A stretch of DNA of 64,000 bases from positions 62,001 through 126,000 of the forward strand of contig JAPLEH010000035.1 of NCBI GenBank assembly GCA_026391455.1, given 5' to 3'. A program made the translations under genes and the position numbers. Source of the stretch: Bacteroidota bacterium (GTDB taxonomy: Bacteria > Bacteroidota > Bacteroidia > Chitinophagales > Chitinophagaceae). Under the pieces are notes generated by a model, which was not told the DNA's origin, did not search any database, and was given only the letters and a program-made list of their open reading frames with translations. Of this stretch, positions 34,883-59,467 are shown one piece after another (within the stretch, counting starts at the first letter, position 1; every line of letters begins with the position of its first letter).

Positions 34883-34896
34883 GTGATGTATGTCAC
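34883..34896 (+). promoter_or_regulatory. Crp/Fnr-type operator upstream of the YeeE pair
   Basis: GTGATGTATGTCAC, a GTGA-N6-TCAC palindrome. Its centre (34889.5) is 29.5 bases before the octamer GACCTTTG at 34919-34926. An exact TATATTTG at 34912-34919 also overlaps and would be an alternative -7 element. The transcript would start near 34931, supporting the ATG at 34945. Confidence 0.65.
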
Positions 34897-34944
34897 CCTG
34901 ACCAATAGTAATATATTTGACCTTTGTATCAAATAAATTCATTC

Positions 34945-35508
34945 ATGTTAGACTGGATCAGGCAGCCCTGGCCCTGGTATGTGGCCGGGCCTTTAATCGG
35001 ATTAACGGTACCCCTTTTGTTATTACTGGGCAATAAATCATTCGGCATTTCCTCTTCATTACGGCATATCTGTGCGGCCTGTGTGCCGGCGGGCATTCCT
35101 TTTTTCCGGTACGACTGGAAAAAGGAGATATGGAACCTGTTTTTTGTTACCGGTATTTTGCTCGGTGGAATACTGGCCGCCCAATGGCTGAGCAACCCAT
35201 CGCCGGTGGTGGTGAACCCCAAACTGGCAGCAGAATTGAGCGGCTATGGTATTACAAATTATGACGGATTGATACCACAACAGTTATTTTCCTGGCCGCA
35301 ACTCATGACACCGAGAGGGATCATCATGATGGTGGGCGGCGGATTTTTAGTGGGCTTCGGCACCCGTTATGCCGGAGGATGCACCAGTGGTCATGCCATT
35401 ATGGGACTCAGCAACCTGCAATGGCCATCTCTGGTAGCTACCTGTTGCTTTATGGCCGGCGGCTTCATTATGGCGAATCTGGTATTGCCCTATATATTGA
35501 AAATGTGA
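34945..35508 (+). CDS. YeeE/YedE family sulfur transporter, N-terminal half type
   Basis: The 187-residue membrane protein has about five helices. The family signature [18 protein letters not shown] (about 133-150) carries the cysteine that in thiosulfate transporter TsuA relays the sulfur substrate. With the next gene it makes a split pair, each half with one GxxxxGxC(T/P)SG-like loop, equivalent to one full-length YeeE. It probably moves thiosulfate or another sulfane-sulfur compound across the inner membrane. The ATG at 34945 was chosen because an earlier in-frame start at 34924 falls inside the promoter. Confidence 0.85.
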
Positions 35509-35512
35509 TGAC

Positions 35513-35636
35513 GATGTGGGATGTACGATGTACGGTGTACGGTGTGGGATGTACGGTGTAAGATGTACGGTGTGCGATGTACTGTGTATGGTGTACGGTA
35601 TGCGATGTACGGTGTGCGATGTACGGTGTGCGATGG
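35513..35636. repeat. heptamer array GATGTAC/GGTGTGC, 17 units
   Basis: Seventeen units of exactly seven bases run from 35513 to 35631, mostly GATGTAC, GGTGTAC, GGTGTGC and close variants, plus a partial unit. The register never slips. It lies directly after the stop codon of the first YeeE gene. Confidence 0.9.
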
Positions 35637-35652
35637 AAAAATGAGCACGCCG

Positions 35653-35708
35653 CTTAAAACTTAAAACTTAAAACCTAAAACTTAAAACTTACAACTTACA
35701 ACTTAAAA
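35653..35708. repeat. heptamer array CTTAAAA, 8 units
   Basis: Eight consecutive seven-base units: CTTAAAA (three), CCTAAAA, CTTAAAA, CTTACAA (two), CTTAAAA. It ends three bases before the next start codon and has the same period as the preceding array but an unrelated sequence. Confidence 0.9.
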
Positions 35709-35711
35709 CCC

Positions 35712-36194
35712 ATGAACACCGAATACGAAGTACGCTCCGAACATGCGATGTGCGTGAACCATTCCGAACTGGACAAACCCCTGGTATCGAAAATAAAATA
35801 TGGTGTGGCCGGTATTTTGTTTGGGATCATACTGGTAAAATCAGAAGTGATATCCTGGTTCCGTATACAGGAAATGTTTCGTCTCCAGAGTTTTCATATG
35901 TATGGTGTAATAGGATCTGCAGTAATAGTGGGCATCATCAGTGTATGGCTGATCAAACGGTTCAATGCAAAAACCATCGATGGCGAATTGATAAAACTGG
36001 AACCCAAAAAATTCAATAAAGGACAGATCTATGGCGGACTCATCTTTGGATTTGGTTGGGCCATCACCGGCGCCTGCCCGGGTCCTTTGTTTGCTCAAAT
36101 AGGTACCGGAGCGTTGGCCGTTTGCGTTACATTGCTGAGTGCTATTGCAGGTACTTGGGTGTATGGCCGGATGAAGGATAAATTGCCACATTAA
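35712..36194 (+). CDS. YeeE/YedE family sulfur transporter, C-terminal half type
   Basis: The 160-residue membrane protein has four helices and the signature GFGWAITGACPGPLFAQIG (about 115-133) with the conserved Cys. Partner of the gene at 34945; the two together match a full-length YeeE. A soluble N-terminal stretch (about 1-25) includes VRSEHAMCVNHSE. The 203 bases between the halves are mostly heptamer arrays; co-transcription is likely because no promoter is seen between them. Confidence 0.87.
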   Translation: MNTEYEVRSEHAMCVNHSELDKPLVSKIKYGVAGILFGIILVKSEVISWFRIQEMFRLQSFHMYGVIGSAVIVGIISVWLIKRFNAKTIDGELIKLEPKKFNKGQIYGGLIFGFGWAITGACPGPLFAQIGTGALAVCVTLLSAIAGTWVYGRMKDKLPH

Positions 36195-36220
36195 GAAGGA
36201 TTCTTTACCGTAAGAAATAA

Positions 36221-36228
36221 TACATTTG
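36221..36228 (+). promoter_or_regulatory. -7 promoter element of the STM3941-like gene
   Basis: TACATTTG, an exact TAnnTTTG match, placed 10 bases before a first ATG (36239) and 40 before the preferred one (36269). Confidence 0.6.
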
Positions 36229-36268
36229 TGCTGCTGCTATGATTGTCCCTCAGGCAGTACACAGGCAC

Positions 36269-36835
36269 ATGGAAAAAAATGTCATCATTGCACACAGCAA
36301 AGGAAAATTGATACGTTTTTGTTTAATCGGACTTATATTTTTTGCTGGCGGTCTATGGATCATACTTACCGATCCACAGGTGGGAAACCCGATCTTTAAT
36401 TCCATTTTTATAAAAGCCTTTTCTGGGTATGGAGGGGTATTGTTTGGCGTACTTGGATTTTGGTTTTACGTAAAAAAATTAATGAACGGCAAACCCGGTC
36501 TTATCATCAATGAGAAAGGGGTGTATAATAATGTGGTGGCATTCGTACCCCGGTTCATTTCCTGGAAACATATTGCATCAGTAGAAGAATATTCCATGAA
36601 GGCAGGATTGGCTTCCCCCCAGTATTTTGTATCCCTGCAGTTGAAGGACCCCAACGCCTTTATTGCTGAAATACCGAATAGCTTTACCCGCACACTGATG
36701 CGGATCAATCGGAGGTTTTCCGGAACTCCGGTCAATTTAACTGCCAATTCTTTGAAAATTACACATAAGGAATTGCTGGCTGCCATTAAGGACGCCTTCG
36801 CCAGGTATAATATGGCAACTACTGCTGAAACGTAG
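36269..36835 (+). CDS. STM3941-like membrane protein
   Basis: The 188-residue product has two helices near the N-terminus (about 16-35 and 50-70) and a C-terminal soluble PH-like domain (GLIINEKGVYNN, FISWKHIASVEEYS). This layout is that of the STM3941 family of unknown function. The ATG at 36239 is also possible and would add ten residues. Downstream, 36836-37116 is AT-rich with a weak hairpin and no gene. Confidence 0.72.
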   Translation: MEKNVIIAHSKGKLIRFCLIGLIFFAGGLWIILTDPQVGNPIFNSIFIKAFSGYGGVLFGVLGFWFYVKKLMNGKPGLIINEKGVYNNVVAFVPRFISWKHIASVEEYSMKAGLASPQYFVSLQLKDPNAFIAEIPNSFTRTLMRINRRFSGTPVNLTANSLKITHKELLAAIKDAFARYNMATTAET

Positions 36836-37116
36836 CCGGCCCGGCTGTCTGTTGTGTACAGAACCGGTTCGAATCATTTTTTTCGCATATACATTGTCGT
36901 TAGTTTTTTTTATATAAAATAAAACTAAAGCTGATTTTCAAATTATAACACAATGTCCGCAACTCATCCACATTTCCCTGCAGGGACTGGCGATGTATTT
37001 GGTAATTTCATTCACCTTTTTGAAGTAAAGGTGGCTAACAGTTGGATGCCATATGGCCCTGTTTGCCGTAAAATGTGTATCTTGAAATACAAGACCACGA
37101 CCTAACCACCCCTCAA

Positions 37117-40100
37117 ATGAAATGCCTGTTATACCTTATCAGCACGCTACTGTTATGTGCTTTAGCGAACGCACAGTCTCCCACATCCGGTACACCGGCC
37201 AGCAGTGAGCATACATTTGCATTGGTAGTGGGTATTGCCAATTATGAAAATGACCGCCTCGATCTGAATTATTCCAACCGTGATGCGGAAGAATTTGCTG
37301 CCTACCTCCGTTCTGCCGCAGGTGGTACTGTTCCCGAAGACAATATCCGGTTGCTGATCGATTCCAGCGCCACCACCGCAGCTATTTATCAATCGCTCAA
37401 ATGGCTGAAGAAAAAAACTGAACTGGCTCAGGCACAGGATGAAAACAGTAAATGTCAGATCTATATTTTTTTTTCAGGCCATGGCGATGTGGAAACAGAA
37501 ACCAAAGCCAATCTGGGTTTTTTACTGGCTTACAATACGCTTCCCAATAATTATATCAACAATGCTGTACGCATAGAAGACCTGAATGATTATGCTCACA
37601 AATTGTCGGTCGATCTTAATGCCAACGTGATCATTATTACCGATGCCTGTCATTCGGGAAAACTGGCCGGCAGCGACAACCGCGGCAGTTATTTAGTTGG
37701 TACTGCTCTGGCCATGGCGAAAGACCGTGAGATCCGTATCGCTTCCTGCAACCCCGATCAACTCAGTATGGAAGACGAACGCTGGGGCAATGGTCGCGGT
37801 GTGTTTTCCTATTACCTGATCAACGGACTGAAAGGGCTTGCCGACCGTAATCAGGATAATATCGTTACATTGAATGAAGCCCGTCAATATGTGGATTCTG
37901 CCATTGCAGCCGATGAAGTATTGAAAGAACTGAGGCATAAGCAAACACCCGTCATCAAAGGCAATCCGCAATTCCGGTTGGCAGATATCAGCCCCGAAAT
38001 TTTTCGGGTAATGATGAGTGCACCTTCTCCAATAACGCGTGAACTCCCTTTGCTGGAAAAATTCTGGAAACTAATCCAGGACAGTATTGCGGATCCTTCA
38101 CAGATTGATTTTGCACGATTGCAAAATGCAAGACGCAGGGATATTCCCGGCCTGTTCTTACAGCAGGTACAGAAGCTGTGGATATTATTCCCGGACCAGC
38201 TCGCCAAAATGCCTGCACAACTGGCATTGCAATTGAGAAACGATACCCTGCAACGAAACCGTTTTAGTGAAAAACTGGTAGAATGGCTGCATAATAAAGG
38301 ACAGGAAGTTATCAATGACTATTTATCAGGTGCTGAAGCCGCCCTGGAGAAAAGACGATACTATAATGTAAAAAGCAGCGGATATGACCGATACCCTTCT
38401 TTGTATGCCACCGCACTGCAACTTACCGATCCATCCGATCCGCTGTACCGTATACTCACTATGAACCGGTATTACTTCACCGGCGTGGCGGGCCGGCTCC
38501 GTATTCCATTGGTAAGAGAAGCGGAACAGAAAGCGATCATTGAAAAGGCCTTACTCGCACAACGAAAAGCCCTTGCATTTGATGATAATGCCGCTTTTGT
38601 ACAAAATGAACTCGGTGTGATTTATCAATATAAAAATGAACTGGTTACTGCGGAAAAATATTTTACAGCCGCAACCGCACTTGCTCCCACCTGGGCTATT
38701 CCCTATTCCAATCTCTGTGTACTGTATCTACAACAAGGTGATACAGCCAAAGCGGCGGCGGCTGGTGCAGAAGCTGTACGTTTGCAACCGGATTTACAAA
38801 ATACACAAATAGCCCTGGGACTGCTCGATGAAAAAAACGGGAACTTCTTATATGCGGAAGAAAGCTACCGCAAAGCGATTGATATCAATTCCCGGCATTA
38901 TCTTCCCTTCGAACTGCTGGGCAATGTGTACCTGCAAACCACACAATATGCACAGGCTGATTCATTTTATCATGAGGCCGCGCTCAGGAAGAAAGGATTT
39001 CATTTCAAAAAAAATTCCTCAGACTACTTTTCCAATGTTGTAGTGGCTCCCTTCTTACCGTTTATTCCCTGCGAACTGGATACATCCGTTTTACAGAACG
39101 ATGATATCATGGCTTTTTTCAATTGGGGTATGGGGCTGTATGACAAAAAGGAATATGTGCAGGCGGAACGTATATTTAAAAAGATTGTGGCACTGGATAA
39201 AAACAATCCGCTGGTATTTCATTATCTGGGTAAAGTTTGTTACGACCAGCAAAAGTGGGAAAAAGCAGAGATCATGTTTAAAATGGCATATCGAAATGCA
39301 CTGCCACGCGACCGCTTTTTAGCTTATTGCGATTCACTGGTAAAGGGGAGGAAATATCCATATGACCATACCTGCTTTGAATCTTTTTTCCGTCGAAATC
39401 ATTATACGCCCGAAGAAGATTCTTATTTCCTGGGTACCATGTATGAAAGCTGGAACCATCCAGATGAAGCGGAAAGATGGTTTCGTAACGTGATCGCGAT
39501 CGATTCAAACCATCCAGCCGGATATTACAAATGCTGGCAATTGTTCGAACGGCAGGGCCGGTATCCGGAAACAGAAGCGATGATCCGTAACTATGGCGGC
39601 ATTGATAAGCAGGTTTCCGATCTTGAACTGAATGCCTTTTACCGCCGGATGACAGATCGCTTTCCCGATCGCGCCGAATGGTTTCACCGGCTGGGTATTC
39701 TTTTATATGGCAAGGCCTCATTACCCAATGAAGTGAAATACCTGGACACGATCATCTGGTTTCCCCGTATTAACCGGGAAGTATTTATTGATAGAGCCAC
39801 TTATGAAAAATTAGGAACTGATCCGTATGTACTTGATCAGAATGAGCCAGGCACTCCGGATAAGTTTCATACAGTGGCATATTCGAGGAGAACGCAGTTT
39901 TTGGAAGTGCCGGGTACCAATGAATCGATCGCACAGGCAGATCTTATTTACACTCCCCGCAAAGACGCGATTTATTACCTGAAGCTGGCCGACAGCCTCA
40001 CTTTGGAAACAAATACCAAAGCTGATATCAATTTTAAGCTCGGCAACGTACATACCTGGTCGGGTTCTCAAAAAATGGCCTATCCGTATTATGCACAATC

Positions 40101-40650
40101 CGTTTCATTGGAGCCGGACAATGCCAATGCAAGAATAAATCTGGTGGATGTGTGTAAAACGCTCTTCAAACACCGGGAAGGACTCAGTCATCTTTCCTAT
40201 CTCTATGAACACACTCAGATCAATTTTGCCAAACGACTGCTTTATGGGGAATGGAGCATACATGCCGGTAATTTTGATAAAGCGTACCAATTATTAACCG
40301 AAGCAAAAACCATTTATCCTTATCCTGTATCCACCATGAACGACCTGATGGGTCGGTTATACCTGATGCGCAAAGAGCCGGAGCAAGCCATCGCCTTTTA
40401 TAAAGCATATAACGAAGACAATAATAATGATGCATGCACACAATACACTATTGCAAAACTGTACCAGCAATCAGGAAATACGACCGAAGCCTGGGAATGG
40501 CTTACTGTTTCCCTGCAAAATGGATTTAATTATGGCTATGTACTGGAAGAAGACAAGAGCTGGGAAAAAATGCGGAATACGGCACAATGGAAAACCTTGC
40601 TGAAAAAATATCCGATGAAGAAATACAAAGAATCCGAAGCTACCCGGTAA
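37117..40650 (+). CDS. secreted caspase-family protease with long TPR region
   Basis: The 1177-residue product has a signal peptide (about 1-19, ending ANAQ) and a caspase/metacaspase-like C14 domain (about 30-290). It starts ALVVGIANYEN; the catalytic His is in IYIFFSGHGDVE (near 130) and the catalytic Cys in IITDACHSGKLAG (near 185). About 850 residues follow with scattered TPR units, for example at 480-560 and 690-740 (FNWGMGLYDKKEYVQAERIF) and near the C-terminus. The frame opens upstream to 37075, but the ATG at 37117 gives the clean signal peptide. Substrates are unknown. It is convergent with a second caspase-fold gene. Confidence 0.85.
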   Translation: MKCLLYLISTLLLCALANAQSPTSGTPASSEHTFALVVGIANYENDRLDLNYSNRDAEEFAAYLRSAAGGTVPEDNIRLLIDSSATTAAIYQSLKWLKKKTELAQAQDENSKCQIYIFFSGHGDVETETKANLGFLLAYNTLPNNYINNAVRIEDLNDYAHKLSVDLNANVIIITDACHSGKLAGSDNRGSYLVGTALAMAKDREIRIASCNPDQLSMEDERWGNGRGVFSYYLINGLKGLADRNQDNIVTLNEARQYVDSAIAADEVLKELRHKQTPVIKGNPQFRLADISPEIFRVMMSAPSPITRELPLLEKFWKLIQDSIADPSQIDFARLQNARRRDIPGLFLQQVQKLWILFPDQLAKMPAQLALQLRNDTLQRNRFSEKLVEWLHNKGQEVINDYLSGAEAALEKRRYYNVKSSGYDRYPSLYATALQLTDPSDPLYRILTMNRYYFTGVAGRLRIPLVREAEQKAIIEKALLAQRKALAFDDNAAFVQNELGVIYQYKNELVTAEKYFTAATALAPTWAIPYSNLCVLYLQQGDTAKAAAAGAEAVRLQPDLQNTQIALGLLDEKNGNFLYAEESYRKAIDINSRHYLPFELLGNVYLQTTQYAQADSFYHEAALRKKGFHFKKNSSDYFSNVVVAPFLPFIPCELDTSVLQNDDIMAFFNWGMGLYDKKEYVQAERIFKKIVALDKNNPLVFHYLGKVCYDQQKWEKAEIMFKMAYRNALPRDRFLAYCDSLVKGRKYPYDHTCFESFFRRNHYTPEEDSYFLGTMYESWNHPDEAERWFRNVIAIDSNHPAGYYKCWQLFERQGRYPETEAMIRNYGGIDKQVSDLELNAFYRRMTDRFPDRAEWFHRLGILLYGKASLPNEVKYLDTIIWFPRINREVFIDRATYEKLGTDPYVLDQNEPGTPDKFHTVAYSRRTQFLEVPGTNESIAQADLIYTPRKDAIYYLKLADSLTLETNTKADINFKLGNVHTWSGSQKMAYPYYAQSVSLEPDNANARINLVDVCKTLFKHREGLSHLSYLYEHTQINFAKRLLYGEWSIHAGNFDKAYQLLTEAKTIYPYPVSTMNDLMGRLYLMRKEPEQAIAFYKAYNEDNNNDACTQYTIAKLYQQSGNTTEAWEWLTVSLQNGFNYGYVLEEDKSWEKMRNTAQWKTLLKKYPMKKYKESEATR

Positions 40651-40696: not shown

Positions 40697-42046
40697 CTAT
40701 CTCGGTAAAAATAATTTCGGTGTTTGCTGACATTTATTACCATTGGGGCAGGGCACTTTACCCGCATATAAGTTGGTCTGTTTTTTGGTGTCTTCCAATA
40801 CCTGAAACCAGGTAGGATTTCCCTTTGCAGGCCCCAGATAACTCCGCAATGATTCAATGAAGAAATAAGTGAAATAAGAACTGTAACGGGGTGTAATGAT
40901 GGCCCTTTCATCGCGGCTCGCGGCGGTCATCAGAAAATTCATTTTGGTCCTGGTCAGAAATAAAGCAATCAGATTATTCTTATTGTATTTCATGGGGGCG
41001 CGTGAAGCCGGTGGTGATACCGGACTTGTGGTTTTTTTGGCTTCTACGGTATCATTACAGCAATCACTCAATACCAGGTTGAGTCTTGCACCTTTTTGCA
41101 CAATGCTCTGATAGATATCCTGTATGTTCATTGTTTGCGCCTGTGGCTTTGGCCGGGGGCGGTTATTGGGATCGCGAAGATCTAAAAATGGAAATTCCTT
41201 ATTGGGAATGGTCTGATCGCGGAAACCATGTCCGGAATAATAAAATACGATAATATCATCCGGGCCTGGTTTTAATCTGTTTACGGCTGCTTCTACGGTA
41301 GCTTTATTATAACGGCTTCCGTATACAGAATCCACCAGCACCGGAATGCCTAATTCATTTTCACCGATATCTGTAAACATATCCACCATTCTGCGGGCAT
41401 CAGTCTGACAATTGGGCATGAGGGAGGAGTCGCGCGTACTGGCCACCACCAGCATAAAGAGACGTGGTTTTTTTGTTTCAAACCAGGGAATTACACCTTT
41501 TGTTCCTTTAGGATTCGGATAGAAAATATTTGTAAAGTAAGAACTCGTGGAATCAAAATAGTTGAGGACAAAGGGTTTGTTGCGGGCCAGTAATTCCGGT
41601 TGATACAAAACGGCCCTGGTTATATTGGATGCCACAGGAATTGGTTCGCCAGCTTTTCCCGTAACCGCCCAGGGTTGATATTGGCCGGTACTGTCCAGTT
41701 TGAACCAGTAAGAAAATACAACCGGAATATATTTTGCAGAGCCTGCTATTTTTTTAGGATTAAGTCCTTCATAGATTAAGAGGGTGGTATCCGCGCTACC
41801 ATCGGGTCGGATGGCATATTGTTCCAGTATTTCCATTTCTGCAAGGGAGCCTGCTTTCAGGTCTTTATATCGCACTATTCCGGTGCCATTACTGTTGAGT
41901 GAAAAAAAAGTACTGTAGGGATTCATTTTTCCTGCTACCGGATATTCATATGCCAGCTCATACACGGTTTGCCCCTGTATCGAAGTCCCGAATAAGCAAC
42001 AAAGGAAGAGCAGAAGAAAAAACGGGTTGTGTTTCAATGGCATCAT
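40697..42046 (-). CDS. second secreted caspase-family protein
   Basis: The 449-residue product has a signal peptide (about 1-26), a beta-rich N-terminal domain (about 27-190), then a C14 caspase-like domain (about 195-435). The domain has LFMLVVASTRDSSLMPNC, His in IVFYYSGHGFRD (about 272) and Cys in LNLVLSDCCNDT (about 325). The Asp-Cys-Cys nucleophile context differs from the DACHSG of its neighbour, so the two are diverged relatives, not recent copies. Their stops are only 46 bases apart. Confidence 0.8.
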   Translation of the reverse strand: MMPLKHNPFFLLLFLCCLFGTSIQGQTVYELAYEYPVAGKMNPYSTFFSLNSNGTGIVRYKDLKAGSLAEMEILEQYAIRPDGSADTTLLIYEGLNPKKIAGSAKYIPVVFSYWFKLDSTGQYQPWAVTGKAGEPIPVASNITRAVLYQPELLARNKPFVLNYFDSTSSYFTNIFYPNPKGTKGVIPWFETKKPRLFMLVVASTRDSSLMPNCQTDARRMVDMFTDIGENELGIPVLVDSVYGSRYNKATVEAAVNRLKPGPDDIIVFYYSGHGFRDQTIPNKEFPFLDLRDPNNRPRPKPQAQTMNIQDIYQSIVQKGARLNLVLSDCCNDTVEAKKTTSPVSPPASRAPMKYNKNNLIALFLTRTKMNFLMTAASRDERAIITPRYSSYFTYFFIESLRSYLGPAKGNPTWFQVLEDTKKQTNLYAGKVPCPNGNKCQQTPKLFLPR

Positions 42047-44041: not shown

Positions 44042-44407
44042 TCAACCTGCTTTCGCTACCATCCGCTCTTCAATCACCTGTCTGAATACATGTTTGGGCA
44101 ATGCTCCGGGCTGCATCATCGGCTCTCCATCGGCACCGATGAATAAAAAAGTAGGAATACTTTGTATGCCAAACACACCGGCCAATTCCTGTTCGGCGTC
44201 GGTATTTACTTTGTAGATTATAATTTTACCATTGTAATCATCAGCAAGTTCTTCCAGTACAGGAGCCACCATTTTACAGGGACCGCACCAGTCTGCATAA
44301 AAATCAATGATACAGGGCAACTCACCCTTGTACTTCCAATCTGCTTCCGTTTCGTAATCAAACACTTTATCCTTAAAATCCTGCGTGGTCATTTGTATCG
44401 TTGGCAT
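44042..44407 (-). CDS. thioredoxin
   Basis: The 121-residue thioredoxin has the active site DWCGPCKMVAP (about residues 40-50), cis-Pro in IQSIPTFLFIG, and the family length plus a short N-terminal arm. Dithiol-disulfide exchange in the cytoplasm; no signal peptide. It lies downstream of the persulfide dioxygenase on the same strand, beyond a repeat region, and has its own -7 element. Confidence 0.93.
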   Translation of the reverse strand: MPTIQMTTQDFKDKVFDYETEADWKYKGELPCIIDFYADWCGPCKMVAPVLEELADDYNGKIIIYKVNTDAEQELAGVFGIQSIPTFLFIGADGEPMMQPGALPKHVFRQVIEERMVAKAG

Positions 44408-44423: not shown

Positions 44424-44431
44424 CAAAGTTA
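44424..44431 (-). promoter_or_regulatory. -7 promoter element of thioredoxin
   Basis: Minus-strand TAACTTTG, an exact TAnnTTTG match 16 bases upstream of the start. No GTGA-N6-TCAC operator is found 29.5 bases upstream of it. Confidence 0.65.
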
Positions 44432-44513
44432 GTGAATAGTGAATGGGTAGTATGCAGTTGGCAGTTTGCAGTTAACAGTTTTCAGTTTACAGTTGGCAAA
44501 TTGCAGTTAAAAG
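44429..44513. repeat. heptamer array GTTNNCA-like, about 12 units
   Basis: Seven-base units in one register: TATGCAG, TTGGCAG, TTTGCAG, TTAACAG, TTTTCAG, TTTACAG, TTGGCAA, ATTGCAG, TTAAAAG at 44451-44513, with degenerate units back to about 44429. Confidence 0.8.
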
Positions 44514-44551
44514 CTGTCTAATGCAGCAACGACAAAACCTAAAATCTAAAA

Positions 44552-44565
44552 CCGATAGCTATCGG
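44552..44565. repeat. palindrome CCGATAGCTATCGG
   Basis: Perfect 14-base palindrome lying inside a short AAAATCT-type heptamer run. The same palindrome occurs at 49228-49241. Confidence 0.75.
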
Positions 44566-44590
44566 GTCGAAATTCTAAAAAAACGCAATT

Positions 44591-44674
44591 CGTACACCCT
44601 ACACCGTACATCGTACACCGTACATCTAACATCGTACATCTAACATCGTACACCGTACATCACACATCTTACAT
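44591..44674. repeat. heptamer array CGTACAC/CGTACAT, 12 units
   Basis: Twelve exact-register heptamers (CGTACAC, CCTACAC, CGTACAT, CTAACAT, CACACAT, CTTACAT and so on). It is the reverse complement of the GATGTAC/GGTGTAC family at 35513 and ends six bases before the stop codon of the persulfide dioxygenase gene. Confidence 0.88.
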
Positions 44675-44679: not shown

Positions 44680-46104
44680 TCACAGCATCGTCACCGGTTC
44701 TGTATACGTGGTTTTTTGCAGTCCGGTCTGGCTTAATGCCTTATAGCCTCCTTTTATATTGACCAGTTTCGTATATCCTCTCGAAAGCAGAATCGAACAC
44801 ATGATCACAGAACGGAATCCGCCGGCGCAATGGATATAATATTTATCTGTTGGCTTTAATTGCGACATGTTATGATTGATGAAATCCAGCGGAAAGTTTT
44901 GTGCACCCACCAGATGTTCAGAGTCATATTCGCTTTTGCGCCGTGCATCCAGCAGGTTAATATGTACGGGGTCCATCTCATAAAGCGTGGCAAAATCTTC
45001 TGCACTGATCTCTTTCAGTGATTCCGTTTCAAATCCTGCATCCTTCCATGCCGCTATTCCTCCGGTTAAGAATCCAATGGCATTATCGTAGCCCACCCTC
45101 GAGAGACGTATCACTACTTCTTCTTCGCGTTTTGCATCTGCAATAAATAAAATAGGTTGTTTCAGATCGGTGATCAGCGTACCCACCCAGGGGGCGAAAT
45201 TGTCATCTAAGCCAATGAAGATCGATCCGGGTATATGTGCTTCCACAAATGCTTCTTTATTTCGGGTGTCCAGTACCAACGCTTCCGTACTTTCCCAGGC
45301 AGCCTGAAACTCTCTTGCAGAAAGGGGACGCTTCCCTTTAGCAATGATGGCATCAATACTGTCCATACCACCTTTCAGGTTCATCAGTACATTGAGCGGA
45401 AAATACTGCGGTGGTTCTACTAATCCGTCTGTAACGGCTTTGATGAATTCTTCCCGGGTCATATCTGCACGCAATGCATAGTTTACTTTTTTCTGATGAC
45501 CGAGTGTATCCGTTGTTTCGCGGCTCATATTCTTTCCGCAGGCACTGCCCGCACCATGTCCTGGATATACAATGAGGTCATCAGGCAGTGGCATAAGCTT
45601 ATTACGCAGCGAATCAAACAAATGACCAGCCAGGTATTCCGGCGTTACTTCCGCTTTTACTTTTTGCACCAGATCCGGTCGGCCTACATCGCCAATGAAT
45701 AAAGTATCACCAGTGAAGATCGCATGCATTTGTCCTTTCTCATCAATGAGCAGGTACGTGGTGGACTCCATGGTATGTCCGGGCGTATGCAGCACTTTGA
45801 TCTGTACGTTGCCCAATTGCATCACTTCTTCATCCTTCGCCACATAGGCATCATAGCCGGGTGTAGCGGTAGGTCCAAATACGATAGTGGCACCGGTTTT
45901 ACGGGCCAGGTCTATATGACCACTCACGAAGTCTGCATGAAAATGCGTTTCGAAAATATATTTTATCACAGCCCCATTTTGCGCAGCCTTATCCATATAG
46001 GGTTTTGTTTCGCGAAGCGGATCAATGATGGCGGCTTCCCCATTGCTTTCAATATAATAGGCGGCTTCTGCCAGGCATCCGGTATAGATTTGTTCTACTG
46101 TCAT
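44680..46104 (-). CDS. persulfide dioxygenase-rhodanese fusion
   Basis: The 474-residue product starts with an ETHE1-type metallo-beta-lactamase domain (about 1-245), with ligands in ETHFHADFVSGHIDLA, HTPGHTMES and FTGDTLFIGDVGRPDL. Two rhodanese domains follow. The first (about 260-360) has Asp-rich LFIADAKREEEV where the active Cys would be, so it is inactive. The second (about 370-465) keeps the Cys in YYIHCAGGFRSVIM. It should oxidise glutathione- or other low-molecular-weight persulfide to sulfite, with sulfur transfer to or from thiosulfate. It diverges from the SQR-like gene. Confidence 0.9.
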   Translation of the reverse strand: MTVEQIYTGCLAEAAYYIESNGEAAIIDPLRETKPYMDKAAQNGAVIKYIFETHFHADFVSGHIDLARKTGATIVFGPTATPGYDAYVAKDEEVMQLGNVQIKVLHTPGHTMESTTYLLIDEKGQMHAIFTGDTLFIGDVGRPDLVQKVKAEVTPEYLAGHLFDSLRNKLMPLPDDLIVYPGHGAGSACGKNMSRETTDTLGHQKKVNYALRADMTREEFIKAVTDGLVEPPQYFPLNVLMNLKGGMDSIDAIIAKGKRPLSAREFQAAWESTEALVLDTRNKEAFVEAHIPGSIFIGLDDNFAPWVGTLITDLKQPILFIADAKREEEVVIRLSRVGYDNAIGFLTGGIAAWKDAGFETESLKEISAEDFATLYEMDPVHINLLDARRKSEYDSEHLVGAQNFPLDFINHNMSQLKPTDKYYIHCAGGFRSVIMCSILLSRGYTKLVNIKGGYKALSQTGLQKTTYTEPVTML

Positions 46105-46232: not shown

Positions 46233-46240
46233 CAAATGTC
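46233..46240 (-). promoter_or_regulatory. -7-like element of the persulfide dioxygenase gene
   Basis: Minus-strand GACATTTG, one base off TAnnTTTG, exactly 29.5 bases from the centre of the operator at 46263-46276. The leader would be about 125 bases. Confidence 0.5.
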
Positions 46241-46262: not shown

Positions 46263-46276
46263 ATGACAAATGTCAC
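46263..46276 (-). promoter_or_regulatory. Crp/Fnr-type operator for the persulfide dioxygenase gene
   Basis: ATGACAAATGTCAC contains the near-perfect palindrome TGACAAATGTCA. It is placed on the minus-strand side of the divergent promoter region with the same geometry as the other sites. Confidence 0.65.
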
Positions 46277-46343: not shown

Positions 46344-46357
46344 GTGACAATAGTCAC
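46344..46357 (+). promoter_or_regulatory. Crp/Fnr-type operator for the SQR-like gene
   Basis: GTGACAATAGTCAC has perfect five-base arms. Its centre (46350.5) is 29.5 bases before TACTTTAG at 46380-46387, a -7-like element 18 bases upstream of the start codon. Confidence 0.7.
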
Positions 46358-46405
46358 GCTGGTTGGCATTGGATGAATCTACTTTAGTGGTATAAATTAA
46401 CCGTT

Positions 46406-47602
46406 ATGACATACCAACGACAAATTGTAATTGTAGGAGGCGGCAATGCAGGCATTTCTACTGCTTCTCAATTGCTCCGGAAAAATAAAGATCTTGATAT
46501 TGCTATCGTAGAACCTTCCGACAATCATTACTACCAGCCTGCATGGACATTGGTGGGTGCCGGTGTATTCGATATTCGTAAGACCATACGTCGCGAAGCT
46601 GAAGTAATGCCTAAAAATGTAAAATGGATCAAACAGAAAGTAGTGGGCTTTCAGCCCGAATCCAATACCATTACACTGGATAATCAGGAAACGATCGGAT
46701 ACCAATACCTGATCGTGGCACCGGGCATACAACTCAATTGGGATGCGATCAAAGGATTAAAAGATACACTGGGTAAGAACGGGGTTTGCTCCAATTACAG
46801 TTTTGATCAGGCTCCTTATACCTGGGAATGTATTAAAAACTTTAGAGGAGGAAATGCACTGTTCACCAACCCGAATACGCCTGTAAAATGTGGCGGAGCC
46901 CCACATAAGATCATGTGGCTGGCCGCCGATTATTTTAAAAAACACAAAGTCTTTGATAAAACGAAGATCCAGTATTGGAGTGGCGGCACCCGCCTCTTTG
47001 GCGTGGATAAATATGAAATCACGTTAAAGAAAGTAGCAGCACGCGACAATGTCGATATGCATTTCTTTACCCGGCTGGCGGAAATTGACGGGCCCGCACA
47101 TACCGCCAAATTTATCGGTATCGGAGAAACTAATAAAGATCAGGAATATGTTGTGCCGTTTGAAATGATACATGTAACACCGCCGCAAAGCGCACCCGAT
47201 TTCGTGCGCAACAGTCCGCTGGCCAATGCTGCCGGATGGGTGGATGTGGACAAACACACCCTGCAACATGTGAAATATGCCAATGTGTTTTCATTGGGCG
47301 ATGCAGCATCTTTACCTACTTCCCGTACCGGTGCTGCCATTCGTAAACAGGCGCCGGTGTTGGTAAAGAATTTGCTGGCCTTAATGGCAGGCAAACCACT
47401 TACCGGTTCGTACAACGGATATACCAGTTGCCCGGTGGTGACCGGTTATGGCAAATTGGTACTCTGTGAATTTGATTATGACAACAAACCCGTTGAAACC
47501 TTTCCCATCGACCAGAGCAAAGAACGCTGGTCCATGTATCAACTGAAACGCAGAGTATTGCCCTGGCTCTATTGGCATAAAATATTGCCCGGAAAAATGT
47601 AA
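46406..47602 (+). CDS. sulfide:quinone oxidoreductase-like flavoprotein
   Basis: The 398-residue product has the FAD dinucleotide motif VIVGGGNAGISTASQL (about 4-20), NHYYQPAWTLVGAG, the second FAD motif NVFSLGDAASLPTSRTG (about 295-311), and cysteines at VKCGGAPHKIMW (about 160) and near the C-terminus (TSCPVVTGYGKLVLCEF, about 335-350). This is the type II (eukaryote-like) SQR pattern. It should oxidise sulfide to a persulfide and reduce quinone at the membrane. It diverges from the persulfide dioxygenase, its likely pathway partner. Confidence 0.88.
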   Translation: MTYQRQIVIVGGGNAGISTASQLLRKNKDLDIAIVEPSDNHYYQPAWTLVGAGVFDIRKTIRREAEVMPKNVKWIKQKVVGFQPESNTITLDNQETIGYQYLIVAPGIQLNWDAIKGLKDTLGKNGVCSNYSFDQAPYTWECIKNFRGGNALFTNPNTPVKCGGAPHKIMWLAADYFKKHKVFDKTKIQYWSGGTRLFGVDKYEITLKKVAARDNVDMHFFTRLAEIDGPAHTAKFIGIGETNKDQEYVVPFEMIHVTPPQSAPDFVRNSPLANAAGWVDVDKHTLQHVKYANVFSLGDAASLPTSRTGAAIRKQAPVLVKNLLALMAGKPLTGSYNGYTSCPVVTGYGKLVLCEFDYDNKPVETFPIDQSKERWSMYQLKRRVLPWLYWHKILPGKM

Positions 47603-47658: not shown

Positions 47659-47672
47659 GTAACAATTGTCAC
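47659..47672 (+). promoter_or_regulatory. Crp/Fnr-type operator for the four-gene operon
   Basis: GTAACAATTGTCAC. The centre (47665.5) is 29.5 bases before GAATTTTG at 47695-47702. The transcript would begin about eight bases before the ATG at 47715. Confidence 0.62.
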
Positions 47673-47714
47673 CCCCTGAATAAACGGGATTGAGGAATTT
47701 TGTATAGTAAAAAA

Positions 47715-47984
47715 ATGATGATGAAGCTTATATATCAGATCAGTCACGGGTGGTCAACGTTAAAGTTCCTGCAGGTTGGCATAGGAGGCTTAATTTTGTA
47801 CACATCTGCCGGAGAGGGACAGATTCCGGGAATACTCCTGGGATCATTGTTTACGTTCGCAGCCCTGGTGGGAAATGGTCAATGTTGCATGGGGAATGCC
47901 TGCCATACCGGGGCAGCAGATACGAATACAAAAGTTATTACAACAACGGAAACGGAATATGAAGAACTGGATGCTGACAAATAA
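47715..47984 (+). CDS. small membrane protein, YgaP/DUF2892-like
   Basis: The 89-residue product has two helices (about 15-32 and 38-55), then a cysteine cluster GNGQCCMGNACHTG (about 55-68) and an acidic tail. Short two-helix DUF2892-type proteins often accompany rhodaneses and sulfur transfer; here the match is by layout only. An earlier in-frame TTG at 47700 would lie inside the promoter. It overlaps the next gene by 26 bases. Confidence 0.7.
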   Translation: MMMKLIYQISHGWSTLKFLQVGIGGLILYTSAGEGQIPGILLGSLFTFAALVGNGQCCMGNACHTGAADTNTKVITTTETEYEELDADK

Positions 47985-48171
47985 ATTACTGCTCGCCGGA
48001 ATAGCAGTGGGCGCCATTGCCGGTTATATATACTGGCAGCAAGTAGGATGTAGCAGTGGTACCTGTGCCATTACATCCAAATGGCACCGTAGCAGTGCCT
48101 ATGGTGCGCTGATGGGTGGATTACTTTTCAGTATGTTTAAAAAAGAAAAAAATGCAAACAGCAACGGATAA
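47959..48171 (+). CDS. DUF6132-like small membrane protein
   Basis: The 70-residue product has two helices (about 8-26 and 46-62) separated by the loop VGCSSGTCAITSKWH, a Cys pair and GTCxITS motif of a Bacteroidota-specific family I recognise as DUF6132. It starts at the ATG of MKNWMLTNKLLL and overlaps both neighbours (26 and 20 bases), showing tight translational coupling. Confidence 0.75.
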   Translation: MKNWMLTNKLLLAGIAVGAIAGYIYWQQVGCSSGTCAITSKWHRSSAYGALMGGLLFSMFKKEKNANSNG

Positions 48172-48481
48172 CCGCAAAGAAAGTTTCAGCCAGTTGATCG
48201 GTGGTGATACACCGGTATTGGTGGATTTTTTTGCAGAATGGTGTGGGCCTTGTAAGATGATGAAACCGGTATTGGAAGATTTACACCGGAAGATGGGACC
48301 CGCATTGCGCATTATAAAAGTGGGTATTGATAAAAGTCCCTCCGCTGCAAATGCCTGGCAGGTACAAAGTGTGCCTACACTGATCTTATTTCAGCGGGGA
48401 AAGGTATTGTGGAGAGGAGCAGGTGCGTTACCCGCAGCAGAATTGGAACGGATCATATCACCCTATATAACCAGTAAATAA
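48152..48481 (+). CDS. thioredoxin-like protein
   Basis: The 109-residue product has active site AEWCGPCKMMKP (about 29-40) and cis-Pro in VQSVPTLILFQ. No signal peptide, so cytoplasmic. Within a sulfur-gene operon it could reduce persulfides or rhodanese intermediates. The ATG at 48152 overlaps the previous gene by 20 bases; an earlier in-frame start at 48116 gives a non-family N-terminus. Confidence 0.9.
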   Translation: MQTATDNRKESFSQLIGGDTPVLVDFFAEWCGPCKMMKPVLEDLHRKMGPALRIIKVGIDKSPSAANAWQVQSVPTLILFQRGKVLWRGAGALPAAELERIISPYITSK

Positions 48482-48485
48482 TTCA

Positions 48486-48944
48486 ATGGCAGAAACAAAA
48501 ACAAACCGGGGTTACCTGAGCGCCACGATCGGCTGCAGATGTCCCCGGTGCAGGGAAGGCAAATTATTTCAATACCCGGTCAGTGCCAACCTGAAGAAGA
48601 ATATGACCATGCATAAAAATTGTCCCGTATGTGGTCAGCCTACCGAAATAGAAGTCGGTTTTTATTATGGTACCAGCTATGTAAGCTATGCGATAACGGT
48701 AGCCATGAGTGTGGCCAGCTTGGCGGTATGGGCATTTACCATTGGACTCTCCATCGATGATAACCGTTTTTTTTACTGGATGGGCACCAATGCTGTATTA
48801 CTGCTCCTGCTGCAACCCTGGCTTATGCGGCTGAGCCGCAGCTTCTGGATATCCTGGTTTGTAAAATTTGACCGGGATTGGAGGCAGCACCAGCCGGAGG
48901 ATGTATCTGAACGAATGAATGCGGATCAGGCGAACAATTGGTAA
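48486..48944 (+). CDS. DUF983 family membrane protein
   Basis: The 152-residue product has an N-terminal zinc-ribbon-like Cys set (GCRCPRCREGKLF at about 16-28 and KNCPVCGQPTEIE at about 44-56) and two or more membrane helices (about 70-90 and 97-117). This is the DUF983 pattern; function unknown. It starts four bases after the thioredoxin stop, so it belongs to the same operon. Confidence 0.87.
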   Translation: MAETKTNRGYLSATIGCRCPRCREGKLFQYPVSANLKKNMTMHKNCPVCGQPTEIEVGFYYGTSYVSYAITVAMSVASLAVWAFTIGLSIDDNRFFYWMGTNAVLLLLLQPWLMRLSRSFWISWFVKFDRDWRQHQPEDVSERMNADQANNW

Positions 48945-53024: not shown

Positions 53025-53028
53025 TATG

Positions 53029-55043: not shown

Positions 55044-55712
55044 TTATAAATGACGAAATGTATAGCCCTGCATGGAGAAATAAGCCAGTACGGCGGGCAG
55101 TGCATATTCAAGCCGGGGGAAGGCTTTCTCACTATCGTGAAATACAATGATCGAACCCGGCCTTGCATTCCAGATCACGTGATGCGCGCATTTTTCACCT
55201 GAAATGCGGGTGTCAAAATCGCCACTGAGCACATCCCACATGATGATGCGGTAATCTTTCAATGCTTTTGCTTGTTCCTTTTTGATGCGACCATAGGGAG
55301 GCCGAAAAAGGTTGCCGGGTATTACACTGGCTGCCGTTGCAGTATCAGCAAGGTATTCGCTCACAGGTGTTTTCCAACCGTTGAGATGATGTTGTGTATG
55401 ATTTCCTACGCGATGCCCTTCGCTGGTAATACGTTTAAATAGTTCGGGATGAGTCTGTACATTTTTCCCAATACAAAAAAAAGTCGCTTTTGCATGATAG
55501 CGTTGCAAGGCATCCAGCACAAAGGGCGTGGCCACCGGATGAGGGCCATCATCAAACGTGAGGTACAATATTTTTTCGCGGCTAGGCAAACTCCACTCAT
55601 ATGCACCATACCAACGCTTCAGCCACCAGGGCGTTTTTACAAAGTAAAACCCACCCGGCCGTTGATCGGGGACCGATTCATTTATGGTTGTAGTATGTTG
55701 CAGGTCATTCAT
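55044..55712 (-). CDS. polysaccharide deacetylase (NodB/CE4)
   Basis: The 222-residue product has a NodB domain with motif 1 YLTFDDGPHPVATP (about 52-65), motif 2 GNHTQHHLNGW (about 105-115), motif 3 FRPPYGRIKKEQ and motif 5 IIVFHDSEKA. It removes N-acetyl groups from a glycan such as peptidoglycan or chitin-like polymer. No signal peptide is seen. The ATG at 55712 was preferred because an upstream TTG at 55733 lies within the promoter element. Confidence 0.88.
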   Translation of the reverse strand: MNDLQHTTTINESVPDQRPGGFYFVKTPWWLKRWYGAYEWSLPSREKILYLTFDDGPHPVATPFVLDALQRYHAKATFFCIGKNVQTHPELFKRITSEGHRVGNHTQHHLNGWKTPVSEYLADTATAASVIPGNLFRPPYGRIKKEQAKALKDYRIIMWDVLSGDFDTRISGEKCAHHVIWNARPGSIIVFHDSEKAFPRLEYALPAVLAYFSMQGYTFRHL

Positions 55713-55730
55713 CAATAAAACAGTCTGGTT

Positions 55731-55738
55731 CAAAGCTA
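55731..55738 (-). promoter_or_regulatory. -7 promoter element of the polysaccharide deacetylase gene
   Basis: Minus-strand TAGCTTTG, an exact TAnnTTTG match 18 bases before the ATG at 55712. Confidence 0.65.
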
Positions 55739-55792
55739 TTATTTAATGCCGATACAGGTTGAAAATAACTTTACCGGTCAACAAGGGCGGTT

Positions 55793-55800
55793 TATCTTTG
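55793..55800 (+). promoter_or_regulatory. -7 promoter element of gltX
   Basis: TATCTTTG, an exact TAnnTTTG match six bases before the ATG at 55807; the transcript is nearly leaderless. Confidence 0.7.
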
Positions 55801-55806
55801 CACGCT

Positions 55807-57333: not shown

Positions 57334-57370
57334 GAAATACAATAGTTGCGGACAGACCTAAATAAAATTA

Positions 57371-57400
57371 AACGGAATGGATAGCTATCCATTCCGTTTT
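57371..57400 (+). terminator. terminator after gltX
   Basis: AACGGAATGGATAG and CTATCCATTCCGTT form a perfect 28-base palindrome with a short T-run. Confidence 0.75.
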
Positions 57401-57457
57401 CCATATACAGGAGCTCATCCCATCATTACTGATAAGGATGAACAAGTTGTGTTGTCA

Positions 57458-57763
57458 TCACGCGATTTTTTTCAGGAGGCTGGTCCAGGGTCCGCCATTA
57501 TACACTTCCACACCGGCAGCTTGTAGTACATTTTTGGCCATACCACTGCGGGCACCGCTCCGGCAAACGGTGATGACCGGCTTACCATTTTTTTTCAACT
57601 CAGTCGCTTTACTACGGATGGAATCAAGCGGATAGTTTTTTGAGCCGGGAATATGACCGTCTTTATATTCCAACGGGCTGCGCACATCCAAAATGATGGC
57701 ACCTGCCTGTACCAATGCTTTGAAATCGGTACTGCTTCCGAAAAGTTTCTGTAGTAGACCCAT
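57458..57763 (-). CDS. rhodanese-like sulfurtransferase
   Basis: Single-domain rhodanese of 101 residues. The active-site loop is VITVCRSGARSGMA (Cys near 70) after the ILDVRSPLEYKDGHIPGS segment. It transfers sulfane sulfur in the cytoplasm. It lies downstream of the TauE/SafE and Crp/Fnr genes on the same strand but has its own putative operator at 57859-57872. Confidence 0.9.
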   Translation of the reverse strand: MGLLQKLFGSSTDFKALVQAGAIILDVRSPLEYKDGHIPGSKNYPLDSIRSKATELKKNGKPVITVCRSGARSGMAKNVLQAAGVEVYNGGPWTSLLKKIA

Positions 57764-57828
57764 TGTAATGATAATTTTTAATGTCAGGAATTCAGTTAGA
57801 ACCAGTTATTTCTTTCATAACCGTGATG

Positions 57829-57836
57829 TAAAATTC
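57829..57836 (-). promoter_or_regulatory. -7-like element of the rhodanese gene
   Basis: Minus-strand GAATTTTA, two bases off TAnnTTTG, similar to the GAATTTTG at 47695. It is 29.5 bases from the centre of the operator upstream. Confidence 0.4.
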
Positions 57837-57858
57837 GGAAAGGGGATCGGGCTGTACA

Positions 57859-57872
57859 GTGACCTGAATCAC
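57859..57872 (-). promoter_or_regulatory. Crp/Fnr-type operator for the rhodanese gene
   Basis: GTGACCTGAATCAC is a GTGA-N6-TCAC palindrome with the same spacing to its -7-like element as four other sites. Confidence 0.55.
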
Positions 57873-57966
57873 ACGGCGCTGATGGCGCGGTAGCAGTGCA
57901 GTACCTGCCAGAACAGCGAGTGAAAAAGGAAAACGGTGCCGGTTTAATTGCGCATAAGGATGATCA

Positions 57967-58770
57967 TTATAAAATAAGTTCGCGTATGATGATATAGATA
58001 CCCATAATCAGGATGAACCAACCAAATCCCGTTTTGAGCCTTGGGCCGGGTATCTTTTCCGCTAACCGGCTGCCGATGAATAACCCCCCGATGGCCAGCA
58101 CGGTAAAGGAAATTAGCAGCAACCAGTTGTAGTCAAATTGTTTGAGGCTGAACAGAAACCCAAATAAGGAATTGATAGCAATGATGAGCAGGGAAGTGCC
58201 TACCGCTATACGCATGGGTAATTTCAGCAGCAACACCAGAGCAGGAATGATAAGAAAACCTCCACCGGCACCCAACAAACCCGTAATCATACCAATAACC
58301 AATCCCAGCAACATCAGGGGAAATACCCGGTGTTCCCCTGCCTGCTTTTCCGGAGTGCCTGCATCACCGGCAGGCTTATTCCTGATCATGGTTACCGAGG
58401 CGGCCAGCATCAGCAGGGCAAACAGTACCATCAGAAACAGATCTTTCGATATGGGTACCTTGCCTAACTGAAATAATGTATCCGGTAAGGCAGGCAACAG
58501 AAAATGCCGTGTGATAAAGATGGAAAAGATGGAAGGGATACCAAATTCAGTAACGGCACGGAAGTCGATCTTTTTCTTCGAATAGGCCCGTATACCCCCG
58601 GCGAGGCTGGTGGCGCCAACTATGAAGAGGGAACTTGTAGTAGCCAATGATGGAGGGACACTCATAAGATAAACCAATACCGGTACAGTAAGAATAGAAC
58701 CACCACTGCCCACCATACCCAGTGAAAGGCCGATCAGTATGGAACAGATATACCCGAGAATTTCCATCAT
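57967..58770 (-). CDS. TauE/SafE family anion exporter
   Basis: The 267-residue membrane protein has about eight helices and the duplicated family motif: SLGMVGSGGSILTVPVLVYL (about 17-36) and GMITGLLGAGGGFLIIPALV (about 159-178). Members export sulfite, sulfoacetate or similar anions. Between a rhodanese and a Crp/Fnr gene, sulfite export from persulfide oxidation is the most likely role. Confidence 0.87.
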   Translation of the reverse strand: MMEILGYICSILIGLSLGMVGSGGSILTVPVLVYLMSVPPSLATTSSLFIVGATSLAGGIRAYSKKKIDFRAVTEFGIPSIFSIFITRHFLLPALPDTLFQLGKVPISKDLFLMVLFALLMLAASVTMIRNKPAGDAGTPEKQAGEHRVFPLMLLGLVIGMITGLLGAGGGFLIIPALVLLLKLPMRIAVGTSLLIIAINSLFGFLFSLKQFDYNWLLLISFTVLAIGGLFIGSRLAEKIPGPRLKTGFGWFILIMGIYIIIRELIL

Positions 58771-58849
58771 AGGGCGTAAAATAAAAAATTTATAAAGGTT
58801 GTACGGAGCAGGTCACTTTCATTTTCGCATATTCATGCCCGTTATCTTT

Positions 58850-59467
58850 TTATACAAACTCGATCATGTTGCGATGTAGTTTCAGCAGGTTGCGTTGTTC
58901 CATTTTTTTTAATAAGCGGGAAATCACTTCACGCGAACTGTTGAGGTCATCTGCGATTTGCTGGTGCGACAATTCGACCGTCTTCTTTCCGCTGTTTTGC
59001 ATATGGCGTTTGAGATAAAATTCCAGTCGTTCATCCATATTACGGAACGCGATGTTATCCACTACGGAGAGTAATTCATCGAAGCGGCTGCGGTATGTTT
59101 GAATAACGAACTGGTACCAGCCTTTATAGGTATTCATCAGGTCGTCCATCAGTTGTACCGGGATCATCAGCACTTCTGTTTTTTCTTCTGCCACGGCCAT
59201 TATTTCGCTGGTGGTGGATTGCAAGGCGCAGATCATTGATACGGCACAGGCCTGACCGGGTCCCAGGTAATACATGAGAAATTCTCCGCCGTCCTGGTTT
59301 TCCCGATAGATCTTGATTCGGCCTTCCAGTACCAGGGCAGTGGATTTGATATATTGCCCTGTACGCATAATGGTATCACCTGCGTTGAATGTGCGTTGTA
59401 CCGCTTCCTTCTCAATGATATCAATAAGGCCCTGTTCGAAATGAGGGAACAATTTTTTCCAGTCCAT
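58850..59467 (-). CDS. Crp/Fnr family transcriptional regulator
   Basis: The 205-residue product has a cyclic-nucleotide-binding-like domain (about 10-115) without the cAMP-contact pattern of true Crp, a long dimer helix (about 115-140) and a winged helix (about 150-205). The recognition helix reads NSSREVISRLLKKME with R179, E180, S183 and R184: the Arg-Glu-xxx-Arg of Crp, which reads GTGA. There is no FNR-type four-Cys cluster. Two cysteines (C74 and C80) lie in GQACAVSMICALQ. It is the best local candidate for the regulator of the sulfur promoters. Confidence 0.88.
   Translation of the reverse strand: MDWKKLFPHFEQGLIDIIEKEAVQRTFNAGDTIMRTGQYIKSTALVLEGRIKIYRENQDGGEFLMYYLGPGQACAVSMICALQSTTSEIMAVAEEKTEVLMIPVQLMDDLMNTYKGWYQFVIQTYRSRFDELLSVVDNIAFRNMDERLEFYLKRHMQNSGKKTVELSHQQIADDLNSSREVISRLLKKMEQRNLLKLHRNMIEFV

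Follow-up and report, generated by a model that had tools for sequence, protein, structure and literature searches.

Members of the Crp/Fnr superfamily offer several described parallels to the system considered here. At class II promoters of Escherichia coli, the centre of the activator site likewise stands 29.5 bases from where the −10 hexamer begins, FNR-type regulators typically activate from −41.5, and HcpR-type regulators control hcp (hybrid cluster protein) and have similar sites of the form GTAAC-N4-GTTAC. According to the available part of PMC9774590, sulfide and persulfide genes are controlled through conserved cysteines by SqrR and BigR (ArsR family), CstR (CsoR family) and FisR, a function like the one assigned here but exercised by protein families that differ from Crp/Fnr. 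That part of the source names CstR, SqrR, BigR, PigS, FisR, OxyR, LasR and OhrR, and the word fnr does not occur in the review. Among the matches listed in the accessible open-licence literature, none describes control of sulfide or persulfide genes by a Crp/Fnr protein, where some query forms probably miss the term 'Crp/Fnr', and a prior description of such a regulator elsewhere is possible. The subject of the present analysis is a 64,000 nucleotide (nt) stretch from a Bacteroidota bacterium (Chitinophagales, Chitinophagaceae; assembly GCA_026391455.1, contig JAPLEH010000035.1, positions 62,001–126,000, forward strand), hereafter the window, which contains a well-supported regulon of sulfur genes with a common operator geometry and, at 58850–59467, a Crp/Fnr-family protein that is the best candidate for its regulator. 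The novelty would be a Crp/Fnr regulon that combines an unusual sensor site with a sulfur function.

The five operators of the window are each paired with an octamer resembling TAnnTTTG (Table 1). An earlier note on this DNA had described all of them as palindromes of the form GTGA-N6-TCAC; its coordinates stand throughout, whilst the exact form holds at 34883, 46344 and 57859 but not at 46263 and 47659, which carry one mismatch each. The geometry that it proposed was borne out, with the octamer beginning 29.5 bases from the palindrome centre, or 36 bases past the palindrome's first base (offset 36), in 5 of 5 sites. Judged from domain matches of the products, all five sites do lead to sulfur genes: a YeeE-like pair, a persulfide dioxygenase (PDO), a sulfide:quinone reductase (SQR)-like flavoprotein, an operon of thioredoxin and DUF genes, and a rhodanese. 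The wider consensus that fits relatives is GTRAY-N4-RTYAC. Perfect palindromes alone are only modestly enriched within the window (4 versus 0.69 expected), and the case for regulon sites rests on the fixed offset. With palindrome and octamer (N-A-N-N-TTTG) sought together at no more than one mismatch, five pairs occur at the 22-base spacer, and any other spacer between 12 and 32 gives none or one; when the window was shuffled 300 times with dinucleotides preserved, the mean was 0.077 pairs and the maximum 2. A sixth site, the perfect palindrome at 31604–31617, was rejected, as it lies inside a radical-SAM gene, has no octamer at the offset and is taken as chance. A working operator ahead of the window TauE gene was likewise rejected, only a half-site being present there.

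Outside the window, loci were fetched by regulator, SQR or YeeE1 protein alone, so as to avoid circularity, yielding 223 upstream regions of sulfur-gene homologues. Upstream regions had to reach 200 bases, and duplicates were removed, first those that shared their last 200 bases and then those with identical 44-mers; palindromes were accepted at up to one mismatch to GTGAY-N4-RTCAC and octamers at up to one mismatch, and offsets 14–51 were compared. The octamer stands at offset 36 in 107 of the 122 unique palindromes and at every other offset in 0–9. Distributed by gene, the palindrome (again with up to one mismatch) lies upstream of 35/39 TauE, 42/48 PDO, 8/12 SQR, 5/8 YgaP-like and 0/1 methyltransferase genes, as well as all SoxB-like genes (3/3), first genes of the DUF operon (3/3) and trx2 genes (2/2). 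SQR orthologues with at least 71 % identity have a perfect palindrome in 8 of 8 cases, and those at 44–56 % identity in 0 of 4; for YeeE1 orthologues a perfect palindrome occurs in 8 of 25 upstream regions (25 of 30 loci after filtering).

The position of these sites relative to the transcription start can be gauged from Flavobacterium psychrophilum, for which the available part of PMC9723704 reports, from mapped starts, a TAnnTTTG sigma-A box at −12 to −5. Taking the octamer position from that species places the palindrome centre at −41.5, in agreement with the earlier note, and with the constant offset of 36 the promoters would conform to the class II arrangement of an activator site centred at −41.5. 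Within the 107 offset-36 sites, T occupies the first octamer position in only 42 %, the other octamer positions being partly fixed by the way in which the sites were picked, and the region near −33 shows no conserved TTG; both features fit activator-dependent promoters.

Further copies were sought across the 5.5 Mb window genome using a tight pattern, GTGAY-N4-GTCAC-N23-A-nn-TTTG, alongside a reversed control. At up to one mismatch it has eight matches, five of which are the window sites that shaped it. The others lie ahead of a second PDO gene on contig C49, just past a Crp/Fnr paralogue and ahead of a YgaP-like transmembrane gene (PF11127, DUF2892) on C13, and ahead of a short-chain dehydrogenase on C8, which may be chance. 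A further 13 matches carry two mismatches, including one ahead of a second TauE gene (C49) and one ahead of a thioredoxin-reductase-like gene (C50), a type of gene that carries sites in two relatives as well. No operator was found in the 293 bases read upstream of the trx2-type thioredoxin gene at 44042–44407, the orthologues of which have one in five fetched stretches. Where relatives have that operator, the window has 7-base tandem repeats that take up much of the upstream region (44430–44674; e.g. 12 copies at 44590–44674), and repeat expansion may have removed the operator. A third PDO copy (C31:17357–19031) adjoins an ArsR-family gene whose product has no cysteine pair, with no coding-strand palindrome of up to one mismatch nearby; this copy is possibly under a second, separate control within the one genome.

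The same pattern was applied to 28 of 34 same-genus genomes; six (G002, G006, G012, G013, G017 and G031; 72–87 % complete, no regulator match) were left out, and G004 and G005 (83 and 87 % complete) were kept. There are 111 matches against 21 for the reversed control, of which 105 fall in the 19 genomes that have the regulator's orthologue at full length (68–90 % identity), one in the five genomes at least 94 % complete without a regulator match (E 1e-20), and five in the remaining four, which have a 43–44 % identical relative or a fragment. Genomes without the regulator tend to be small, and co-loss with the targets contributes to this co-occurrence. The refuting condition named in the earlier note, that the motif at this offset be no commoner before sulfur genes than elsewhere in the genome, was examined in part, over the window genome and the genus, and the note's reading survived it. 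Downstream genes were examined for 85 matches, contained in 40 stretches chosen for fetching, and 60 lead into sulfur or thiol-redox genes: TauE (15), PDO (13), the DUF operon (8, by first protein or DUF6132), YeeE1 (7), SoxB-like (5; the proteins of relatives score 239–241 bits on the SoxB model, under its cut-off of 550), trx2-type thioredoxin (5), SQR (3), thioredoxin reductase (2), an SQR-like flavoprotein (1) and another thioredoxin (1). Operators also recur ahead of genes with no obvious sulfur role, namely those for an Ig-domain lipoprotein (L103, L110 and L123), a FadL-like porin (L104 and L124), an outer-membrane efflux protein (L109 and L132) and an Rrf2 regulator (L106 and L111).

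The nearest named relatives of the window are Chitinophagaceae and other Bacteroidota assemblies, and the arrangement extends through the phylum. Of 198 phylum-sample genomes, 75 contain a relative detected by a profile of 35 regulators (E 1e-30), and a PDO relative (E 1e-50) is present in 73 of these 75 versus 48 of the 123 regulator-negative genomes (Fisher P 7.5e-19, uncorrected for kinship). Among 40 regulator loci drawn from the samples of the order and the phylum, a set that includes the window, three same-genus loci and one genome represented twice, sulfur genes within about 1.5 kb of the regulator comprise PDO in 13, rhodanese in 12 and TauE in 11. In the 38 loci left after removal of the window and the duplicate L238, the stretches around the regulator hold 65 palindromes, of which 26 have the octamer at offset 36 and 0–7 at any other offset. 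Upstream of PDO in the phylum sample (29 loci, 28 of them properly examined, the start in L280 being misplaced), a perfect palindrome occurs 14 times, in 13 cases with its octamer at offset 36. In named Flavobacterium loci (L213 and L216) sites are found ahead of PDO and TauE, with half-sites GTAAC.

The protein encoded at 58850–59467 belongs to the Crp/Fnr superfamily, possessing both a cNMP_binding-type sensor domain and a Crp-type helix–turn–helix (HTH), and all 50 Foldseek matches listed for it are Crp/Fnr-type proteins by name. The R-E-xxx-R helix that had been ascribed to it is indeed present, as SREVISR (S178-R179-E180-V-I-S183-R184), with S178, R179, E180, S183 and R184 invariant in 35 homologues. 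The protein has just two cysteines, C74 and C80 (CX5C). All 35 aligned homologues (43–90 % identical to it) keep both, a conserved pair such as dithiol persulfide sensors of the CstR and SqrR type have; CX5C is found in 40 of 40 order and phylum-sample loci (38 by pattern, two by eye). In a structure model with a mean predicted local distance difference test (pLDDT) score of 86, the two residues flank a short sensor-domain helix (76–82), the pLDDT being 70–73 in the two ten-residue blocks around them. By alignment, this region would correspond to the part of CRP that holds the cyclic nucleotide, its phosphate-binding cassette. The window genome has six HTH_Crp_2 matches (five over the cut-off), of which only this protein has CX5C and only it and the C13 paralogue have R-E-V-x-x-R; within that Pfam family, to which the search was confined, the other four were rejected as regulator for want of this motif. 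As the protein adjoins targets, co-occurs with sites and is one of two with the helix motif, it is the best candidate regulator, and it probably binds the operators. The paralogue (G000 C13:101814–102467; also L018 and L256) is of the same subfamily and stands directly ahead of the operator and YgaP-like gene mentioned above; cross-talk or a division of labour between the two is possible. The cysteine pair, the spread through the phylum and this second regulator are all additional to the earlier note.

With regard to known systems, CRP of E. coli resembles the window regulator in its domains, R-E-xxx-R helix, GTGA half-sites and centre-to-element distance. It differs in that the window protein reaches only 44.1 bits on the CRP model NF008732 against a cut-off of 266, has C74 and C80 in the putative region of the nucleotide pocket, and is associated with sulfur targets and the −7 octamer of Bacteroidota. 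The superfamily is shared by FNR and further redox regulators of the Crp/Fnr type; unlike FNR, however, the window protein scores 29.5 bits on the Fnr model NF008365 (cut-off 228) and lacks the N-terminal [4Fe-4S] cysteines. The best sequence match of solved structure is 3dv8 (EUBREC_1222, E 1.4e-31), a Crp/Fnr protein with an aligned CX5C (MCLLSASCIM) from Eubacterium rectale, which belongs to another phylum; its record states no function. A known type of sulfide sensor in place of the Crp/Fnr protein was also considered and rejected: the CsoR family has no match in the window genome, and of three ArsR-family matches the one that was read, encoded next to the third copy of PDO, lacks the cysteine pair.

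Taken as a whole, the evidence makes it likely that the window contains a regulon for the oxidation and detoxification of reduced sulfur, run by the 58850–59467 protein as a class II activator, with C74/C80 as its probable persulfide switch. The purpose would be to oxidise or detoxify sulfide, persulfide and thiosulfate, with export of sulfite. SQR would oxidise sulfide to persulfides, which would modify C74 and C80, probably with formation of a di- or polysulfide link, and the linked regulator would switch to its DNA-binding form. Its dimer would then bind GTRAY-N4-RTYAC at −41.5 and assist RNA polymerase at promoters that have the Bacteroidota −7 octamer but no conserved −33 element. The activated PDO, rhodanese, thioredoxin and transport genes (in relatives Sox-type genes too) would remove persulfide and close the loop, a feedback suggested by the functions of the targets and by cysteine-based sensors such as CstR and SqrR (available part of PMC9774590). 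The broader proposal, that a Bacteroidota-wide Crp/Fnr subfamily constitutes a dithiol CX5C persulfide or polysulfide sensor that acts from an operator fixed at −41.5 to switch on the oxidation of sulfide and thiosulfate, is on balance plausible.

A number of observations weigh against these proposals. The search pattern was itself derived from the window sites, and the independent tests are therefore those outside the window. Within the protein-first set, 15 of the 122 palindromes have no octamer, although five of these, by inspection, lie on the SQR side and were read from the PDO gene that diverges from it. The palindrome share is low upstream of YeeE1 (13/40), rhodanese (11/50) and trx (3/17), many of which may be paralogues or operon-internal genes, and YeeE1 has no site in six genomes with a close regulator (G034, G011, G030, G028, G027 and G015). 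At up to two mismatches the window genome has 21 matches against 17 in the reversed control, so that the weak class is not separable from chance. In the genus, 25 of the 85 examined matches have no recognised sulfur or thiol-redox gene downstream: for ten, no gene is called before the 350-base limit or the end of the fragment, and the other 15 stand ahead of different genes (Ig-domain lipoprotein, three; methyltransferase, Rrf2, outer-membrane efflux protein and FadL-like, two each; unassigned, four). In the phylum sample, P values take no account of kinship, several PDO loci with a regulator have no perfect palindrome, and in the regulator-negative G136 and G193 PDO is preceded by a weak palindrome together with a good octamer, possibly reflecting a more diverged regulator below the cut-off. 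Finally, CX5C is also compatible with nitric oxide (NO), metal or plain disulfide sensing, and the C13 paralogue retains the first cysteine only (CIMSFSS) and yet adjoins a site.

The strongest of the alternatives, albeit an unlikely one, is that the Crp/Fnr protein is in control but senses redox state, NO or oxygen (via a dithiol/disulfide, or a cluster or haem that uses the two cysteines), the sulfur genes then belonging to a broader redox response. Such inputs are known among Crp/Fnr proteins, and the thioredoxin and thioredoxin-reductase targets of relatives would suit a thiol-redox response; most recognised targets, however, are sulfide, persulfide and thiosulfate genes, and FNR-type N-terminal cysteines are absent from a protein that has C74 and C80 only. 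It is decidedly improbable that the regulon and operator are as described but the C13 paralogue, or both paralogues jointly, is the main regulator. Despite its same helix type and its place beside the site upstream of the YgaP-like gene, ten genus genomes with a single regulator match at E 1e-20 (G009, G011, G014, G020, G021, G027, G030, G032, G033 and G034) still hold 43 tight-pattern matches, and in the loci read, which among relatives are those of the window regulator's orthologue, it is this orthologue rather than the paralogue that adjoins sulfur genes. Still more doubtful is a repressor released by sulfide: whilst the sulfide sensors CstR and SqrR are repressors (available part of PMC9774590), distant relatives keep the site at exactly −41.5, a precision that a repressor would not need, and the low share of T at the first octamer base together with the missing −33 TTG is as would be expected of activator-dependent promoters. 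Chance palindromes near promoters can be dismissed as extremely improbable, given that, although the window shows no clear surplus of palindromes at up to one mismatch (25 versus 18.4 expected; 9 of 100 shuffles reach 25), the offset recurs in the window relative to shuffles and in the protein-first (107/122), regulator (26/65) and phylum PDO (13/14) loci, and site and offset are conserved in orthologous promoters.

Table 1. Operators, paired octamers and genes of the sulfur regulon in the window
Feature	Position	Strand	Details
Operator GTGATGTATGTCAC upstream of YeeE-like pair	34883–34896	+	Perfect palindrome; 0 mismatches to tight pattern
Octamer GACCTTTG, paired with 34883 operator	34919–34926	+	
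YeeE/YedE-like pair, Sulf_transp domains	34945–36194	+	PF04143; open reading frames end at 35508 and 36194; weak TsuA thiosulfate transporter matches, far under cut-off
PDO-like protein	44680–46104	−	PF00753 metallo-beta-lactamase and two PF00581 rhodanese stretches
Octamer GACATTTG, paired with 46263 operator	46233–46240	−	
Operator GTGACATTTGTCAT upstream of PDO gene	46263–46276	−	One mismatch; conserved ahead of PDO orthologues
Operator GTGACAATAGTCAC upstream of SQR	46344–46357	+	Perfect palindrome
Octamer TACTTTAG, paired with 46344 operator	46380–46387	+	
SQR-like flavoprotein	46406–47602	+	Best NCBIfam NF049943 (type III SQR, selenoprotein subtype), 233 bits, under 525 cut-off
Operator GTAACAATTGTCAC upstream of DUF/DUF6132/thioredoxin/DUF983 operon	47659–47672	+	One mismatch
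Octamer GAATTTTG, paired with 47659 operator	47695–47702	+	
Operon of four genes	47712–48944	+	First gene: small protein without family, 47712–47984
DUF6132 gene of operon	47959–48171	+	
Thioredoxin gene of operon	48116–48481	+	
DUF983 gene of operon	48486–48944	+	22.4 bits, just under 22.6 cut-off
Single-domain rhodanese	57458–57763	−	PF00581
Octamer GAATTTTA, paired with 57859 operator	57829–57836	−	
Operator GTGATTCAGGTCAC upstream of rhodanese gene	57859–57872	−	Perfect palindrome
TauE/SafE-family membrane protein	57967–58770	−	PF01925, E 6.7e-45
Half-site GTGACCTGCTCCGT between regulator and TauE genes	58803–58816	−	Sequence at offset, TTTACGCC, is no octamer; full site in relatives
Crp/Fnr-family regulator, 205 aa	58850–59467	−	cNMP_binding PF00027, 49.9 bits (cut-off 27.5); HTH_Crp_2 PF13545, 37.1 bits (cut-off 27)

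The name given to the PDO enzyme in Table 1 follows from its combined metallo-beta-lactamase and rhodanese architecture and is to be read as putative. Elsewhere in the window there are two adjoining caspase-domain (Peptidase_C14) genes, at 37075–40650 and 40697–42046, the first of which has a long run of TPR repeats.

If the proposed role of the regulator is true, it would represent a new class of reactive-sulfur sensor, in which a cysteine pair replaces the cyclic-nucleotide site. The operator also provides a way to find new sulfur genes, since in relatives it stands ahead of SoxB-like genes and, in addition, of methyltransferase, Rrf2 regulator and outer-membrane genes without a known sulfur link. 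Of the 198 genomes in the phylum sample, 121 have a PDO relative (E 1e-50). The combination of a defined operator, a two-cysteine candidate regulator and a list of targets makes sulfide sensing in this phylum directly testable.

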